In this document: in pieces, positions 10,763-64,000 of the stretch
Numbering within the stretch: the first letter of the stretch is position 1
How the letters are laid out: each line of letters opens with the position of its first letter
Assembly (NCBI RefSeq): GCF_000812665.2
Contig: NZ_CP014327.1
Location: 3,749,501 to 3,813,500, forward strand
Reading direction: 5' to 3'
DNA from: Falsihalocynthiibacter arcticus
GTDB taxonomy: Bacteria > Pseudomonadota > Alphaproteobacteria > Rhodobacterales > Rhodobacteraceae
DNA: 64,000 bases
The notes under the pieces: model-generated
What the model saw: the letters and a program-made list of their open reading frames with translations, nothing else
Databases searched by the model: none
Told to the model about the DNA's origin: nothing
Made by a program: the position numbers and the translations under genes

Positions 10763-11704
10763 ATGCTAGGAAAAACCGCAGGTGGGCTGTACTGGATGTT
10801 CCGACTTCTGGAACGCAGCGAAAACACCGCACGTCTCATTGAAGCCGGATTTCGCATTGCGTTGACCCGATCAACCGACCCAGCATCGGAGTGGAAATCG
10901 GTCCTGACCACAGCAGGTGTGCGCGCAGGCTATGACGCGAAATACGACAGCTACTCAGCTGCTTATGTCGTCGACTATTTGCTGCGCGACGCTGACAATC
11001 AATCCAGTGTGATGGCATGCATCGAAAATGCGCGCATGAACGCCCGCATGGTACGCACTGCCCTGACAACCGAAGTTTGGGAAGCCGTCAATGAAAGCTG
11101 GATGACGCTTTGCGAGGTGTTGAAAGAGCCGGTCAAAGACACTGAATTACCTGCAGTATTGGGTGAAATTCGTCGTCGTACGGCATTGGTTCGTGGTGTG
11201 ATGCACGGGACAATGCTGCGCAACGACGTGTTTGATTTTACGCAAATCGGGATCGCGCTGGAGCGCGCTGATAACACCGCGCGGATCATTGATGTGAAAT
11301 ATTTCACGCTGCTCCCCACGGCGAGCTATGTCGGATCGACATTGGACAATGTGCAATGGGAAACCATTTTACGATCCGTCTCGGCCCACCGGTCTTTTCG
11401 GTGGCTACACACTGATGACATGTCACCAGATAAGATTGCCGAATTTCTGATCCTCGACAGTCGCTTTCCAAGATCCCTGTCGTTCTGCAGCCGTACCATA
11501 GAGCAAAGCATGGAATTCCTCGCCAAGGATTACGGCAAAACCCTGCCGTGCCATGGTCTGATCGAACAGCAACGCGACAAGATGCGAAACCATACCATTC
11601 AGACAATTTTTGAGGATGGCCTGCACACGTTCATCACTGAGTTCATCCATGACACGAAGGTCATTGGGCGCCAAATTGAACAAGATTACCGGTTTACTGG
11701 GTAG
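10763..11704 (+). CDS. Alpha-E domain protein (DUF403)
   Basis: A 313-residue all-helical protein beginning MLGKTAGGLYWMFRLLERSENTARLIE, the hallmark of the alpha-E family. A second ERADNTARIIDVKYF motif at about residue 155 repeats the same helix pattern. These proteins are almost always encoded beside the circularly permuted ATP-grasp and transglutaminase genes and are thought to act with them; no reaction has been assigned. The GGAGG site overlaps the end of the ATP-grasp gene, showing tight coupling. The TTG-started transglutaminase gene follows 10 bases later. Confidence 0.9.
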   Translation: MLGKTAGGLYWMFRLLERSENTARLIEAGFRIALTRSTDPASEWKSVLTTAGVRAGYDAKYDSYSAAYVVDYLLRDADNQSSVMACIENARMNARMVRTALTTEVWEAVNESWMTLCEVLKEPVKDTELPAVLGEIRRRTALVRGVMHGTMLRNDVFDFTQIGIALERADNTARIIDVKYFTLLPTASYVGSTLDNVQWETILRSVSAHRSFRWLHTDDMSPDKIAEFLILDSRFPRSLSFCSRTIEQSMEFLAKDYGKTLPCHGLIEQQRDKMRNHTIQTIFEDGLHTFITEFIHDTKVIGRQIEQDYRFTG

Positions 11705-53454: not shown

Positions 53455-53490
53455 AATGGCGGCCTTTTTTCCCCAAAGGAGGCCGCCATT
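53455..53490 (+). terminator. Rho-independent-type terminator after fasciclin gene
   Basis: AATGGCGGCC (53455-53464) pairs perfectly with GGCCGCCATT (53481-53490). The following ATTATTCT is T-rich only in part. Confidence 0.75.
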
Positions 53491-53530: not shown

Positions 53531-54034
53531 ATGAAACTGTTTTGCGTTCTCACACTCGCTTGCCTCACAGATTCGCAATCCTATGCTGACATTCATTTGG
53601 AATTTCTCGAAGGGGCGCCGAAGGACAAATTTGTATTAACGAACGAAGGTTCATGCCAGGTCAAAAACGCCGTAATTAAAATTGACCTTTCCGGTGCGGC
53701 TGCTGGGCTGATTTTTGACGTGACCGCCGCGGGGGCCGGAGTGGAGGTTTTTCAACCCCTTGAAATCACATCTGGGGCTGAACATTTTTCAACGATTCCA
53801 AAAGTATCAGACGGCGATCAATCTATTACACTTCAGCTACAGAATTTTGGCCCTAACAAAGTTGTGGCATTCACAATCGACGTTGATGACACTACGGGAG
53901 CGCGTGAAATCACCGTATCGGACAGCGAATTTGATGGCGTTTCGGTCTCTGCAACGATGGGCGAGCAGCTCTTCTCAGCAACCCTACAAGATCGTTCCGA
54001 AGTACGCTTAGATATGGCGGGTTGCATGACGTGA
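53531..54034 (+). CDS. Exported aggregation-factor-core-like protein
   Basis: A 167-residue secreted protein (signal MKLFCVLTLACLTDSQSYA). The body, IHLEFLEGAPKDKFVLTNEG, through LSGAAAGLIFDVTAAGAGVEVFQPLEI, VVAFTIDVDDTTGAREITVSDSEF and a final Cys pair, matches proteins called 'aggregation factor core' in Rhodobacterales. The fold is probably beta-sandwich. Function is not established. It overlaps the next gene (TGATG). A fragment of a second member is at 56003-56209. Confidence 0.8.
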   Translation: MKLFCVLTLACLTDSQSYADIHLEFLEGAPKDKFVLTNEGSCQVKNAVIKIDLSGAAAGLIFDVTAAGAGVEVFQPLEITSGAEHFSTIPKVSDGDQSITLQLQNFGPNKVVAFTIDVDDTTGAREITVSDSEFDGVSVSATMGEQLFSATLQDRSEVRLDMAGCMT

Positions 54035-55335: not shown

Positions 55336-55892
55336 ATGAATCATTTCTTTAAGCGTTATACCGTCGCATTCTTTGTGTTTTTTGCGCCCATGATGGCCAC
55401 GGCAGGATATACCGTTTTGGAAGATTTCAAGTCACAGCCAGAGACAAGATGGGGATTTTTTACGGATGGCGTCATGGGCGGAGTTTCCCTTGGGCAGGCG
55501 TCGTTTGTTGCAGAGAACGATGATGTCCACGCACATATGACTGGAAATGTGAGCACTGAAAACAACGGGGGTTTCATCCAAATCCGCATGGAACTACCGG
55601 ATGGAGCGCCAGAGGATGCCAAGGGCGTGAGGCTCGTCGTGCGCGGCAATAATCAAGAGTACTTTATCCATCTTCGCACTTCTGGAACACGCCTTCCGTG
55701 GCAATACTATCAAGTCGGTTTTGATGTCAGCAACGATTGGAACGAAGTCATGCTGCCTTTCTCCGACTTCAAACCGTCTGGTAGCTTTCTTCGCGCTATC
55801 CCTCGGCAAGCAGCTTAAAATCCATTGGCGTAGTGGCCTTTGGGCGAGACCACGAAGCAGACGTCGACATAAAAGAAATCGGTTTTTACTGA
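55336..55892 (+). pseudogene. CIA30-domain protein with frameshift
   Basis: The frame starts MNHFFKRYTVAFFVFFAPMMATAG (signal peptide) and continues as a CIA30 domain: WGFFTDGVMGGVSLGQASF, FIQIRMELPD, QEYFIHLRTSGTRLPWQYYQVGF. It stops soon after FSDFKPSGSFLRA. The rest of the domain, SLKSIGVVAFGRDHEADVDIKEIGFY, follows in another frame to a TGA at 55890-55892. A one- or two-base change near 55800 separates them. The intact protein would be about 185 residues. Confidence 0.8.
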
Positions 55893-55976
55893 GCTTTCAT
55901 TGCATCATTCGCCAATGGTCTCAACTCTGGTTTTTGCAGCTAGAAATTATGCTGTTATTTTTGCGAGGAGAGCAAC

Positions 55977-56006
55977 TTGAGTTCGGTTGGCCACAACCGA
56001 ACTCAA
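55977..56006. repeat. 30-bp perfect palindrome
   Basis: TTGAGTTCGGTTG at 55977-55989 and CAACCGAACTCAA at 55994-56006 are exact complements around GCCA. It is not followed by a T-run. It falls at the edge of the remaining aggregation-factor fragment and may be a rearrangement scar or a binding site. Confidence 0.7.
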
Positions 56007-56209
56007 CAGACGGTGGCCAAGTCATTGGCCTCAAACTGAACGATTTCGACCAGACCAAAGTCGCAGCGTTCTCGATTAATGTTGATGACACCGCCGGTGC
56101 GAGCAAAATAACGGTGTCTGATAGTGAGATAGAAGGCGTCCAGTTTTCTACCGAGTTGGCAGTTCAAAGCTTTAAGGCCCGTTTAAGGCACCCAAAGGAC
56201 TCGTCTTGA
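56003..56209 (+). pseudogene. Second aggregation-factor-core-like fragment
   Basis: STDGGQVIGLKLNDFDQTKVAAFSINVDDTAGASKITVSDSEIEGVQFSTEL matches residues about 95-150 of the protein at 53531. The N-terminal two thirds and signal peptide are gone. It is a remnant of a paralog that lay downstream of the CIA30 gene. Confidence 0.8.
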
Positions 56210-59589: not shown

Positions 59590-60113
59590 CCCCGGCATGC
59601 GTCTATCGACTGCAAAACGGGCCCGGCCAAAGTATTAAGTCGTGCGCTGGCGTGAGATCCATTCCCGTCCATCCGGAGCTCATCAGGCTCGGCTTGTTGG
59701 AACTTGTAGCTCTGCGCCGTCAAGAAGGCGAACCACGCCTGTTCCCCGAGCTTGAACGTGGCAAAACAAAAGAAACCTATTCCGAATTATTCACCAAAGA
59801 GTTCACGAAGTACCGACAGAAGAACAATGTGTATTGGCGCGGACTGGATTTCCATGCCTTGCGCACGACCGTCCACCATCAATTGATGGACAACGGAGTT
59901 CCTGGATACGCAAAGCGACGTCTTTTGGGGCATGAAGCCTTAGATGAAGGTGAAAAATCGTATGCTCAACATGGCATATCAATCTCCACCCTATTTACCG
60001 CCGTCTGCGGACTTAGCTATGATCTTTCTGGCATCCGAAGTCCTTTCGAGGGTCAGCAGCTCAATGAGCTGGAGAACGTGGTGAGCGTGAACGGCCTGAG
60101 GGTGATCAAATAG
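59590..60113 (+). pseudogene. Integrase C-terminal half
   Basis: From GVRSIPVHPELIRLGLLELVALRRQEGEPRLFPEL the frame is the catalytic domain of a Rhodobacterales integrase, with HALRTTVHHQL (HxxR) and LGHEALDEGEKSY (His and Tyr). Upstream codons (KSC, PGQSIK-like) remain in frame for about 30 codons, then stops appear; the first catalytic Arg and the N-terminus are missing. It is not the same type as the integrases at 31158 or 34123, and resembles the 480 gene more. Confidence 0.8.
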
Positions 60114-60619: not shown

Positions 60620-61036
60620 TCAGAAATTTGCGTTAACATTTTCGAGCAATCGCCGCGCCGCTATTCTGGCCCGGGCTTGCTTACGAACAAAATCGAAACT
60701 TTCCCATTGCAAGATAAACCGGCGGAGGTCTTCCAACGCATTGTTGAACAGATATTCCTCATGCTTGCAGACATCGAGGACTCGATTTCCGTAGCCTGGA
60801 CGTAAGTCATTGGCTGCGCTTACGAGCGCTGACCCCATAGCGGAGATGCATTCATCATCCTGCGTCTCAAAGACCTCCCCGCACTCCAGTCGCTCCAAGG
60901 TCTGCAGAAGAGCACGACGATGGTAGCTCTTCAGAACCGGCCCAGATTGGGCATAATCTCTCCCAAATGCCTGACCCGAGTTAATTGCACGCGCAACCAT
61001 CACCTCGAGGCTCTCCTCGCGTCGGATATTACTCAC
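60620..61036 (-). CDS. Orphan protein in the paralog block (138 residues)
   Basis: Not recognised. A predicted mostly helical protein, MSNIRREESLEVMVARAINSGQAFGRDY, with LQTLERLECGEVFETQDDECISAMGSALVSAANDLRPGYGNRVLDVC and a basic C-terminus. Three cysteines are present. Its ATG overlaps the stop of the upstream paralog (ATGA), so it is read from the same message. It shows no clear similarity to the three paralogs. Confidence 0.6.
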   Translation of the reverse strand: MSNIRREESLEVMVARAINSGQAFGRDYAQSGPVLKSYHRRALLQTLERLECGEVFETQDDECISAMGSALVSAANDLRPGYGNRVLDVCKHEEYLFNNALEDLRRFILQWESFDFVRKQARARIAARRLLENVNANF

Positions 61037-61404
61037 GCTGCCACCTCACCAGCTTGCTCACCACCCACAGGCATGGTTTGCTCATAGCCGTCGATAAGGG
61101 CACCCACCGCCTCTGTCAGAAGACAGATTTGCCATACGATCGGATCTTCTGGATCAATCATTGCACAGTAGCCAGCCTCCTCTCGATCGAAGTCGGCGAC
61201 ATGCTCGAGGCCCAGGAGCCCATGCAGCCAATTCAACTCGCGGAGCAGCCGAACCTTGCCGTTCGGAGCCGTGAGCGCGCGGCGAAAGCGTTGCAGTCGC
61301 ATTAGAGCGACGGAACCACCAAGTAGCAGAACCGCGTTTTGCAATTCCATGTCGTTTTGTGCGATAAAAGCCTTTACCGCAGCGAGAAGTTGTTTCCGAT
61401 TCAT
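61033..61404 (-). CDS. Orphan paralog 1 (123 residues)
   Basis: No recognised family. It begins MNRKQLLAAVKAFIAQNDMELQNAVLLLGGSVALMRLQRF. Motifs shared with the paralogs at 61770 and 62436 are LLGG-x-x-A-(L/F)-x-R (about 27-35), LH-x-(L/V)LSL-like WLHGLLGLEHVADFD (about 58-72) and IDPEDPIVWQICLLTEAVG (about 80-98). Predicted all-helical and cytoplasmic. The ATG at 61404 has an AGAGGA site; the frame is open upstream into the leader. It is the last of three tandem paralogs on the minus strand. Confidence 0.7.
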   Translation of the reverse strand: MNRKQLLAAVKAFIAQNDMELQNAVLLLGGSVALMRLQRFRRALTAPNGKVRLLRELNWLHGLLGLEHVADFDREEAGYCAMIDPEDPIVWQICLLTEAVGALIDGYEQTMPVGGEQAGEVAA

Positions 61405-61555
61405 GCGGAAATCCTCTTTTTCAATGCCGCCCAATTGGCGGCTCAAGCACCCCGGCACGGGTTCTCCTTTGTACCTCGCGGGGTGTCATTTACTCGTATT
61501 CGGCAGGTCATTTTTTGTTTTCTTGCGGCTCACAAAGAGGCCGCGAGAAATACAA
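61405..61555 (-). promoter_or_regulatory. Conserved leader of paralog 1
   Basis: The 150 bases upstream of paralog 1 are repeated upstream of paralog 3 (62817-62970). A hairpin, GCGGC/GCCGC at 61525-61544, has the same loop TCTTTGTGA-like sequence in both but a T-A pair instead of the G-C pair in the other copy. A second inverted repeat (GCCGCC/GGCGGC) lies just before the ribosome binding site. This pattern suggests a structured RNA leader. Confidence 0.5.
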
Positions 61556-61629
61556 AATATACTGACAGTCTCAATTATTATTCTTTTCCCCCTGCCCGCG
61601 TATGGGCCAGCGGTACGCGGTCTTGCAGC

Positions 61630-61758
61630 TTACACGACCATCTCGGTCGCCATGGGGCCGATGAGACCAAGAACGCACGACAGGAACGGCGGCATGGATA
61701 CACCCAGCCTCAAATTATCGAGTTGAGTTTCTATTTGCCTTTCGGAGCTATAATGCAT
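61630..61758 (-). CDS. Small ORF, 42 residues, with consensus ribosome binding site
   Basis: ATG at 61758 lies seven bases after a perfect AGGAGG. The product, MHYSSERQIETQLDNLRLG and a hydrophobic C-terminus SMPPFLSCVLGLIGP, is not recognised. It begins 12 bases after the stop of paralog 2, so it is probably the next gene of that operon. Too short for similarity arguments, but the start site is convincing. Confidence 0.5.
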   Translation of the reverse strand: MHYSSERQIETQLDNLRLGVSMPPFLSCVLGLIGPMATEMVV

Positions 61759-61769
61759 CGAGGCCTCCT

Positions 61770-62147
61770 TCACGCTGCCATGTCGAAATGGAAGACAGGC
61801 GCATTCGAAGCGTTATCGATAGCGCGCATATGATCCATCAGCCCATCGGTTAAGAGACATATCTCTTCGACCACCGGATCGTATGGGTCGATTCTGGCAA
61901 AAAGACCGTGTTCCAGCCTTTCCGGATCCGCGACGTAATACAAAGACAGAACCTTGTGTAACTCAACCAAGTTACGTTTTGAACTTCGGGTCAATGTCTG
62001 GTTCGATCTGAGATCATCGCACAAAGACTGAATGCGCCGCAGCGCAGGGCCTCCCCCCAATAGAAAGGCTGCGTTTCGCAGCGGTTCGTAATTATGGGTG
62101 AGGAATGAGCACAATCCTTTGATTGCTGTGGTTTCTTGATACGTCAT
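61770..62147 (-). CDS. Orphan paralog 2 (125 residues)
   Basis: Not recognised. MTYQETTAIKGLCSFLTHNYEPLRNAAFLLGGGPALRRIQ, then KRNLVELHKVLSLYYVADPERLEHGLFARIDPYDPVVEEICLLTDGL. It is the clearest version of the shared pattern; identity to paralogs 1 and 3 is roughly a third. Charged, helical and cytoplasmic. The AGGAG site (CCAAAAGGAGTTTC) is strong. Its leader differs from those of paralogs 1 and 3. Confidence 0.72.
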   Translation of the reverse strand: MTYQETTAIKGLCSFLTHNYEPLRNAAFLLGGGPALRRIQSLCDDLRSNQTLTRSSKRNLVELHKVLSLYYVADPERLEHGLFARIDPYDPVVEEICLLTDGLMDHMRAIDNASNAPVFHFDMAA

Positions 62148-62299
62148 TTGAAACTCCTTTTGGTTTTCGTGGTGTGACGGACAAGAGGCTCAGGCGGGGT
62201 GTCGGGTTCTGTTTCATGTCATCTTGCTTCCTTTTTTCTGGGGGCTGACAGAGCTTTTCTGCGCATTCTCACCAAGAAGAATACGCAGAAAAGTTCGCA

Positions 62300-62380
62300 T
62301 CAATCCCCATTTCCTATTGAGGCGTGCGGGCCGACTGCACGCAGATTTCCATTGATTTCGACTATAAAACGCGGGTTCAT
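62300..62380 (-). CDS. Possible small ORF, 26 residues
   Basis: A frame MNPRFIVEINGNLRAVGPH with an AGAGGA site nine bases upstream, in the gap after paralog 3. It could be a leader peptide. Evidence is limited to the ribosome binding site and position, which parallels the 42-residue ORF after paralog 2. Confidence 0.3.
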   Translation of the reverse strand: MNPRFIVEINGNLRAVGPHASIGNGD

Positions 62381-62435
62381 TGCAGCGTTTCCTCTTGCGG
62401 AATCGCCGCATAGACCAAACTCGGCTTGGCTCGTA

Positions 62436-62816
62436 TCAGGCCGCGAGGTGATGGTCCTTGGGCGGCAATTCGTGCTCCGCATCGATCTGCGTGAGAATGC
62501 CATGGAGCCCGTATTTGAGTAAGAAAATGCCTTCGACAACAGGATCCGCAAGGTCGCTATCGACGAGATATCCGCATTTTCTGTTTTCAGGATCAGTGAC
62601 GTGGCGCAAGCTCAGGAGATCATGGAGGGTCTGTAGTTCACGTTTCAACTGGCGTGTTAAAACCGTACCCGCGCAAACATCTTCGAGCAGATTTTTAGAC
62701 CGGTTGAACGCCCGTTGGCCGCCGAGAATAAATGATGCGGCCCCGATGACCTCCCAATTATCTTGCAGGAAGCGATTTACGGCACACAGGTCCGCATTTT
62801 GACGGTAATCAAACAT
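62436..62816 (-). CDS. Orphan paralog 3 (126 residues)
   Basis: Not recognised. MFDYRQNADLCAVNRFLQDNWEVIGAASFILGGQRAFNRSKNL, then KRELQTLHDLLSLRHVTDPENRKCGYLVDSDLADPVVEGIFLLKYGLH. The same conserved positions as in paralogs 1 and 2 are kept (LGG, LH-LLSL, DPVV-I-LL). It is the first of the three after the integrase gene, which lies 278 bases upstream on the same strand. A terminal His pair (DHHLAA) ends the protein. Confidence 0.72.
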   Translation of the reverse strand: MFDYRQNADLCAVNRFLQDNWEVIGAASFILGGQRAFNRSKNLLEDVCAGTVLTRQLKRELQTLHDLLSLRHVTDPENRKCGYLVDSDLADPVVEGIFLLKYGLHGILTQIDAEHELPPKDHHLAA

Positions 62817-62970
62817 TTGGAATGTCTCTTTTTAATGCCGCCCTATTGACGGCTCAAGCGCGCGGTATGGGCCTTTCTCTCAGACCACGCGGGGTATCCC
62901 TTACTCTTTTCGGCAGGTCGTTTTTTGTTTTCTTGCTGCTCACAAAGAGGCAGCGAGAAACAAAAAATGA
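62817..62970 (-). promoter_or_regulatory. Conserved leader of paralog 3
   Basis: Similar to 61405-61555 over 150 bases. The hairpin arms are GCTGC (62935-62939) and GCAGC (62950-62954). The flanking runs TTTTTTGTTTTCTTGC and CACAAAGAGG are unchanged between copies. In the other leader the arms are GCGGC and GCCGC, so the middle pair has changed on both sides. Confidence 0.5.
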
Positions 62971-63093
62971 ACTGCCATATTCCTTTCATACTTTCCGTCC
63001 CCCTCGATCCTCGCATGCAAATAGCGAGCGGATCGCATACTTAATCACATTGCATTTGCCTCCACGATGAAACGTGTTCGATGCTGCCCGCTG

Positions 63094-63993
63094 TTACCCC
63101 TGTAGGGATTTCTCGATCGCACTCAGGTTCTTGAAGGCCTGTGCCCTGCGATACCGGTCGGCGTTTACCTCATAGAACTTCTTGCTTGTCGCATGCGCAT
63201 GCCCGACGAGTGCTTGTGCCACTTTCGCATCGAGACGGTCATCAAGGGTACAGTAATCGTAGATCAACGTGCGAACGATGTGGGCACTATGGCCCGTGTG
63301 CTCGGTCATATTACGGCGCAACCATTCACGCTCATAGCATTTCCAATCGCGTGCAGGGTTGGCAAAGAGTGCGGTGCCGACGCGTTGATCGTAGATCTTC
63401 CAAAGGTATGCCGGGTCCGTGTCCATCAATAATGTGGCATCGAGGAAAGGTGTCAGGCAATCCGCTAACCGACCGGTTATCCGCGTGCCGGTCTTGGAGG
63501 TTTCCAAGTCGACGCGCCAGCCCTCACTATTGCGACTGAACTCTCTCCCTATCTTGCCCTGACGCAAGTCCAGGGCCCGAATGGGCAATTTGCAAAGAAG
63601 AGCGATGGCGCCAGCCAGAGTGTAGTCACGCCTGCGGTTTCGGATGTCGTTTTCCAAAGGAGCCTGCTCAAGAAGCACGCGCGCTGTTTTGGCCAGATCA
63701 ATCAAATCGATCGGCACACGCGCCAGTTTGATTTCCTTACGCTTCAGATCCGGTTTGGCCTCTTTCTTGAGCGCCCAATGAGTTTCCACCAAAGCATTCC
63801 CGATCTCGGCGGCGTATCCTGCGCGCTTGGCAAAATACCCGAGAAAATCGCAATAACCAGCTGCGGAGATCAGCGTGAGATCGCTCGCAACCAAATCTTC
63901 GGCAAAGGCCGTCGCGGTTTCCATAGTGAGCGCGAGCTCCAATTCATGTTGTTTCGCGGAACGCAGCAGGCGCCGAATGGCGCTCCCCATCAC
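63094..63993 (-). CDS. Tyrosine recombinase (right-edge integrase, possibly partial)
   Basis: At least 299 residues of a phage-type integrase. A first Arg lies in CKLPIRALDLRQGKIG (about residue 149), the HxxR box is SAHIVRTLIYDY (about 253) and the C-terminal box is LVGHAHATSKKFYEVN (about 277-290) with the Tyr. The frame remains open to the window edge, and the listed start (GTG 63993) may be internal. Orientation is such that the three orphan paralogs follow it in the same direction, so it probably belongs to the element that carries them. Confidence 0.85.
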   Translation of the reverse strand: MMGSAIRRLLRSAKQHELELALTMETATAFAEDLVASDLTLISAAGYCDFLGYFAKRAGYAAEIGNALVETHWALKKEAKPDLKRKEIKLARVPIDLIDLAKTARVLLEQAPLENDIRNRRRDYTLAGAIALLCKLPIRALDLRQGKIGREFSRNSEGWRVDLETSKTGTRITGRLADCLTPFLDATLLMDTDPAYLWKIYDQRVGTALFANPARDWKCYEREWLRRNMTEHTGHSAHIVRTLIYDYCTLDDRLDAKVAQALVGHAHATSKKFYEVNADRYRRAQAFKNLSAIEKSLQG

Positions 63994-64000
63994 TTTTATG

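Follow-up and report, generated by a model that had tools for sequence, protein, structure and literature searches.

A hairpin-led pair of small genes beside recombinases in Falsihalocynthiibacter arcticus and other Rhodobacteraceae

The stretch of DNA analysed here, referred to as the window, comprises 64,000 nucleotides (C1:3749501-3813500) of the 4.38 Mb genome of F. arcticus. Towards its end lie three small tandem genes next to an integrase, which a preliminary description, made from the letters alone, likened to arrays of immunity or anti-defence genes. The questions raised by this locus are what such genes encode, how they relate to the neighbouring recombinase, and what defines the block in which they are carried.

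Three tandem genes and their partner

The three tandem genes are real and are all encoded on the minus strand, in the series A3 (62436..62816; 126 aa), A2 (61770..62147; 125 aa) and A1 (61033..61404; 123 aa from an ATG, with an alternative GTG start giving 141 aa), followed by a partner gene, B (60620..61036, minus strand; 138 aa), whose GTG start lies in a 4 nt overlap with the A1 stop. The motifs from which their kinship had been proposed, LGGxxAxxR, LHxxLxL, VxD and DP(I/V)VxxIxLL, are present in A1, A2 and A3 and recur among the relatives (96 members of family A were collected), so that their sharing is not a matter of chance. Their portrayal as diverged paralogs is also upheld, with A2 and A3 being only 37 and 34% identical to A1. 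Searches of Pfam, NCBIfam, PHROGs and PADLOC with A1-A3, and then with 48 members, gave no credible match, nor did comparison with the PDB by profile and by fold, in agreement with the earlier remark that no known family fits; a series of TALE-repeat matches in the PDB profile search was rejected as weak matches to a GG-helix motif that had been summed. The AlphaFold2 model of A2 is confidently helical (five helices, pLDDT 93), and fold searches with it returned no significant match. The predicted structure of B is likewise helical (pLDDT 86), with no match in a fold search.

B follows A directly at most loci, either with a 4 nt overlap or 70-110 nt apart, and is more diverse than A across loci. 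Profile comparison of A with the main set of B proteins was not significant, and that with a short B type was weak (E 0.0009, probability 23%). A pN/pS of 0.20 over A1-A3 and B, measured between two copies within one genome, indicates coding constraint, the loss of which in relatives had been named as a refutation of the original observation; the constraint is weaker for A2 alone.

Profile searches detected family A in 44 of 298 and in 62 of 393 Rhodobacteraceae genomes (about 15%, or roughly one in seven), named carriers including Sagittula, Ruegeria, Limimaricola, Thioclava, Paracoccus, Sulfitobacter and Jannaschia; Thioclava nitratireducens, Roseivivax sp. THAF40 and Sagittula salina are carriers in culture. 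Among 289 genomes drawn from across the Alphaproteobacteria, the F. arcticus genome itself was the sole match, the family being absent from the other 288 or so. The A proteins constitute an undescribed family, limited to the Rhodobacteraceae in the genomes sampled. The copy number varies from one to seven per carrier genome and tandem pairs occur elsewhere, as the preliminary description had proposed to check; most loci carry a single A-B pair, and arrays are therefore exceptional. Family A was found on ten plasmids, in no phage record and in one IMG/VR contig, and a phage origin was rejected on this account.

The A-B loci are patchy in occurrence, plasmid-borne and multicopy and combine a couple of small neighbouring genes with RNA-like elements, as would suit a toxin-antitoxin or anti-phage module. 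PADLOC, Pfam and NCBIfam nevertheless returned no match, and neither phage homologues nor a recognisable catalytic motif were found, which renders such a module quite improbable. As for type III toxin-antitoxin systems in particular, a single hairpin per gene with no short direct repeats was found instead of a tandem-repeat antitoxin RNA, and A is predicted to be all-helical. The immunity analogy has nothing positive in its favour beyond patchiness and is not supported, given the lack of PADLOC matches and phage homologues and the rarity of arrays.

The duplicated unit and its recombinase neighbours

A block of 2.3 kb that spans a hairpin, the three A genes and B (60645..62978, minus strand) is present a second time in the same genome, 257 kb away (C1:3552889-3555224), at 96% identity and in different surroundings, where it adjoins a different integrase. 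The homology starts at the outer edge of the hairpin upstream of A3 (hereafter hairpin I) and stops in the last codons of B. When pairs of loci with kilobases of unrelated flank available were compared, the homology likewise started within about 20 nt of the outer hairpin edge and ended near the B stop: the offsets from the hairpin edge and the B stop were +1/-19 for the window genome pair (96% identity), +17/+51 for two copies within another genome (87%), and +14/-10 (83%), 0/+1 (68%) and +3/+31 (72%) for further pairs. Decay of the flanks could mimic such boundaries in the weak pairs but not in the strong ones. Other locus pairs have longer common flanks, and movement of the bare unit is thus recurrent without being the sole history. 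The unit, as delimited by these comparisons, consists of hairpin I, one or more A genes and B, and moves as one piece.

Directly upstream of the duplicated unit lies a large tyrosine-recombinase-like reading frame (63094..64000, minus strand; group c2) which continues past the window edge, and downstream of it lies an integrase fragment (59652..60113, plus strand; group c16). The former is part of a pair of large recombinases (groups c1 and c2), of which a c1 homologue on a Roseivivax plasmid is annotated as 'site-specific integrase'; Pfam searches gave no match above threshold for the reading frame in the window or for the other recombinases adjoining the unit. About a quarter of the 96 A genes, including the window locus, directly follow such a pair on the same strand, and a recombinase or transposase lies within 6 kb of A at no fewer than 50 of the 96 loci, a lower bound as many flanks are short. 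The link of the block to a recombinase, as originally proposed, is upheld. Elsewhere, A adjoins nrdJ (13 of 96 loci), a DDE-type gene (3 of 96) or other integrases.

The gene nrdJ encodes an adenosylcobalamin-dependent ribonucleotide reductase and neighbours A-B at L049, L051, L060, L063, L070, L072, L079, L080, L082, L083, L089, L095 and L102, mostly in convergent orientation and often close to his genes; the repetition of this neighbourhood suggests an insertion hot spot. At another locus, a long hairpin (L008:1108-1170; 28 bp stem, loop GATAAAT) precedes the helix-turn-helix gene within the recombinase operon. Within the window, the neighbouring reading frames at 53531-54034 and 55721-56209 have the stretch VAAF(S/T)I(N/D)VDDT(A/T)GA...ITVSDSE in common, the second looking like a decayed copy of the first.

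The position of A after large recombinases recalls SE elements, GInts and Tn554, in which a small helical gene follows the large tyrosine recombinases and, in SEs and GInts, is an essential recombination auxiliary (PMC10214605). Family A could accordingly be a counterpart of TnpC (Tn554), Srap (SE elements) or GinD (GInts) that serves the adjacent large recombinases, and the layout in about a quarter of the loci matches. Most A loci, however, carry no recombinase pair, the unit has moved between different elements within the window genome, and Srap and GinD homologues are reported to be absent from Alphaproteobacteria (PMC10214605). A differs further from the small genes of these elements in often lying away from such recombinases and in having a hairpin of its own. 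With so loose an association A cannot be placed in the SE, GInt or Tn554 groups, and an auxiliary role of this kind is quite improbable.

The leader hairpins and their strand polarity

Hairpin I recurs about 60-150 nt upstream of each of the three A genes: at 62912..62976 for A3 (model core 62920-62969), with its outer edge coinciding with the end of the duplicated block, at 62240..62306 for A2 (core 62249-62298) and at 61502..61567 for A1 (core 61510-61559). It is also found upstream of most A genes among the relatives. Its stem of 20-30 bp is hypervariable and covarying, the sequence being almost wholly different between relatives, while the tip is constant, with one bulged base on the 5' side of the gene strand, a UC/GA pair and a pentaloop that usually reads NNNGY. 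A stem score of at least 12 was reached in 64% of 92 A upstream regions compared with 0.5% of dinucleotide shuffles. In a gapless alignment of 42 stems, 83.5% of the cells were paired (53% when shuffled), double-sided changes occurred at 21 of 22 pairs, and the covariation was 0.73 as opposed to 0.21 in shuffled and 0.16-0.23 in slid alignments, a slide of the partner by one column sufficing to abolish the pairing signal. As these 42 hairpins were chosen partly by stem strength, the shuffle figure for the 92 upstream regions and the genome search described below are the cleaner tests.

Applied to the F. arcticus genome, a covariance model of hairpin I recovered exactly the six A leaders, each with an E-value of 1.4e-5 or lower, and produced no other match even at E-values up to 1. 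Across 298 genomes of the bacterial family it gave 39 matches at E 0.001, of which, by inspection, 24 stand before an intact A gene, two before a decayed or truncated A, eight before a B without a recognisable A and five before something else, such that 34 front A and/or B. A strict tie between hairpin I and gene A was refuted by the hairpins before B-only and other genes, so that hairpin I marks the module and not gene A alone. Hairpin I comes directly after a large recombinase pair at L156 and L162, where a family A gene is absent; at L162 an unrelated 218-aa reading frame lies behind the hairpin. The first and third hairpins of the window genome are nearly alike, so that specificity for each gene is not general.

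Two further arrangements were encountered among these loci. At L151, L153 and L154, hairpin I gives way within a few nucleotides to another small gene, of about 90-120 aa, which has its ribosome-binding site within the right arm of the hairpin and is followed by a short B-type gene. At L066:7535-7584, an additional hairpin I precedes the one that fronts the A gene by about 640 bp, and no A gene can be recognised behind it. The window also holds an imperfect long hairpin with a 30 bp stem (11166-11233), which bears no relation to the A module, and a strong terminator-like 16 bp hairpin (53455-53490), AATGGCGGCCTTTTTT-CCCC-AAAGGAGGCCGCCATT.

Several simpler identities for hairpin I were rejected. 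A cmscan search of Rfam with E up to 1 assigned it to no RNA family, the microRNA names returned being chance matches to long stems. A T run is absent after the stem on both strands, contrary to a terminator, and a start codon and ribosome site reading past the tip, as in a leader peptide, were present in only 8 of 61 cases. Promoter sites resembling a -10 box are not enriched around it on either strand.

Closer to the gene, immediately ahead of the start codon, the A leader holds AAAGGAG, a CTTGA box and a second hairpin (hairpin II). The CTTGA box followed by a hairpin of 5-9 bp was present in 57 of 91 upstream regions, compared with 0.3 in shuffles, at 40-51 nt from the start codon with two exceptions. 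In the window it lies on the minus strand at 62837..62858 in the A3 leader and at 61426..61447 in the A1 leader, and it is not clearly present before A2. Over a stretch of about 155 bp the leaders of A1 and A3 share 81% of their positions, compared with about a third for the proteins, and this suggests an exchange of leaders. Both leader structures are conserved as structures, hairpin I with a fast-changing sequence.

Since G.U is tolerated within an RNA hairpin and A.C is not, the type of mismatch within the stem reveals the strand that is used. Read on the gene strand, an unbiased set of 53 stems of hairpin I holds 47 A.C against 8 G.U single mismatches (p=8e-8); counted per hairpin, 28 lean towards A.C and two towards G.U, and the opposite strand folds with the lower energy in 35 of 42. 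Control hairpins from these loci show no bias (33 G.U, 35 A.C), and terminator-like hairpins lean towards G.U as expected (22 versus 10). With the test resting on A-linked hairpins, the 14 others being uninformative, the excess of A.C together with the symmetric controls indicates that hairpin I appears to act on the strand opposite gene A.

This asymmetry bears directly on the possibility that hairpin I belongs to the leader of the A mRNA and is bound by protein A, a predicted helical bundle, or by the ribosome in translational autoregulation. Its fixed place upstream of A would suit such a role, as would the tip of bulge, two base pairs and pentaloop, which resembles protein-binding hairpins, for instance phage coat operators. 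The top fold match of A, a Rop-derived bundle, points in the same direction in that Rop is an RNA hairpin binder, but with E 0.22 the match is not significant and may serve as a lead only. Together with the S23/IVP-Avd four-helix proteins, Rop represents the helical RNA-binding bundles among the weak fold matches of A, with non-significant E-values of 0.2 to 2.8, and no Pfam match to S23/IVP-Avd was found among 48 A members. Hairpin II does lean to the gene strand (9 versus 4). For hairpin I, however, A.C far outnumbers G.U on the sense strand, the reverse of what would be expected of a sense RNA, and the strand test therefore disfavours a sense leader bound by A, rendering it distinctly unlikely.

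A possible antisense RNA or folded DNA

The strand asymmetry fits an antisense RNA and a folded single-stranded DNA equally well. The reading put forward here, tentatively and with less than even confidence, is that of an accessory module which can be transferred, belongs to recombinase-bearing mobile elements of the Rhodobacteraceae and would be under the control of a hairpin in cis. Hairpin I would be used by the cell on the strand opposite gene A, most likely as a small antisense RNA, folded into a hairpin, that would base-pair with the leader of A and keep the translation of A and B low. A and B, as small predicted helical proteins, would probably work together, either regulating the element or serving it as an accessory factor. 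Silencing of A and B by such an antisense RNA, a possible though by no means assured role for hairpin I, would work as IS10 RNA-OUT (Rfam RF00240) or a type I antitoxin RNA acts on its partner in cis. Hairpin I resembles these RNAs in being a short hairpin, apparently on the strand opposite a mobile-element gene and near its 5' region, and differs in having no Rfam match, a conserved bulged pentaloop tip and an unrelated controlled protein; the likeness is one of proposed action and no membership is claimed. The lack of enriched -10-like sites, the hairpins that front B without A (eight of 39) or something else (five of 39) and the near identity of the first and third hairpins count against this reading.

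The main rival to the antisense reading is a recombination site recognised as folded single-stranded DNA, with A and B as its cassettes. The attC sites of integrons fold on the bottom strand, and hairpin I shares with them its hypervariable stems, its apparent opposite-strand folding and a unit boundary that coincides with the hairpin edge in independent pairs, with recombinases nearby. The conservation of bulge and loop, the tandem hairpin-gene units of the window, and the recombinase pair that immediately precedes A at about one in four loci, and hairpin I even without A at L156 and L162, would also be accommodated. On the other hand, the R''/R' boxes of attC (RYYYAAC ... GTTRRRY) were found at the base of none of 61 hairpins on either strand, the conserved landmarks lie close to the tip instead of the base, and the opposite end of the unit showed no conserved site. 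Hairpin I moreover lies upstream of its gene, no IntI was identified, and the cargo is nearly always A/B (34 of 39 hairpins) and not arbitrary. Such a site is unlikely on balance, and a full non-integron cassette system of the Rhodobacteraceae, in which large tyrosine recombinases would move hairpin-led small helical genes via a structure-recognised single-stranded DNA site, is improbable.

The preliminary description mentioned neither the partner gene B, hairpins I and II nor the second genomic copy, and it is hairpin I, gene B and the boundaries of the unit that are the more informative features. Neither the A/B proteins nor hairpin I are present in any library tested. The protein pair, so far unannotated, occurs in about one genome in seven across a major bacterial family. 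From one relative to the next almost the entire stem of hairpin I is replaced, yet the shape, the tip and the strand polarity of the hairpin are retained, and its position coincides with one edge of a moving unit. By analogy, antisense control and a structure-recognised site would both have known relatives in their working mode, the recombination reading, if true, being further from anything known. If the folded single-stranded DNA site is borne out, it would represent another natural structure-recognised cassette recombination beside integrons, and if hairpin I acts as an antisense RNA, it would constitute a new cis-RNA control on mobile elements.
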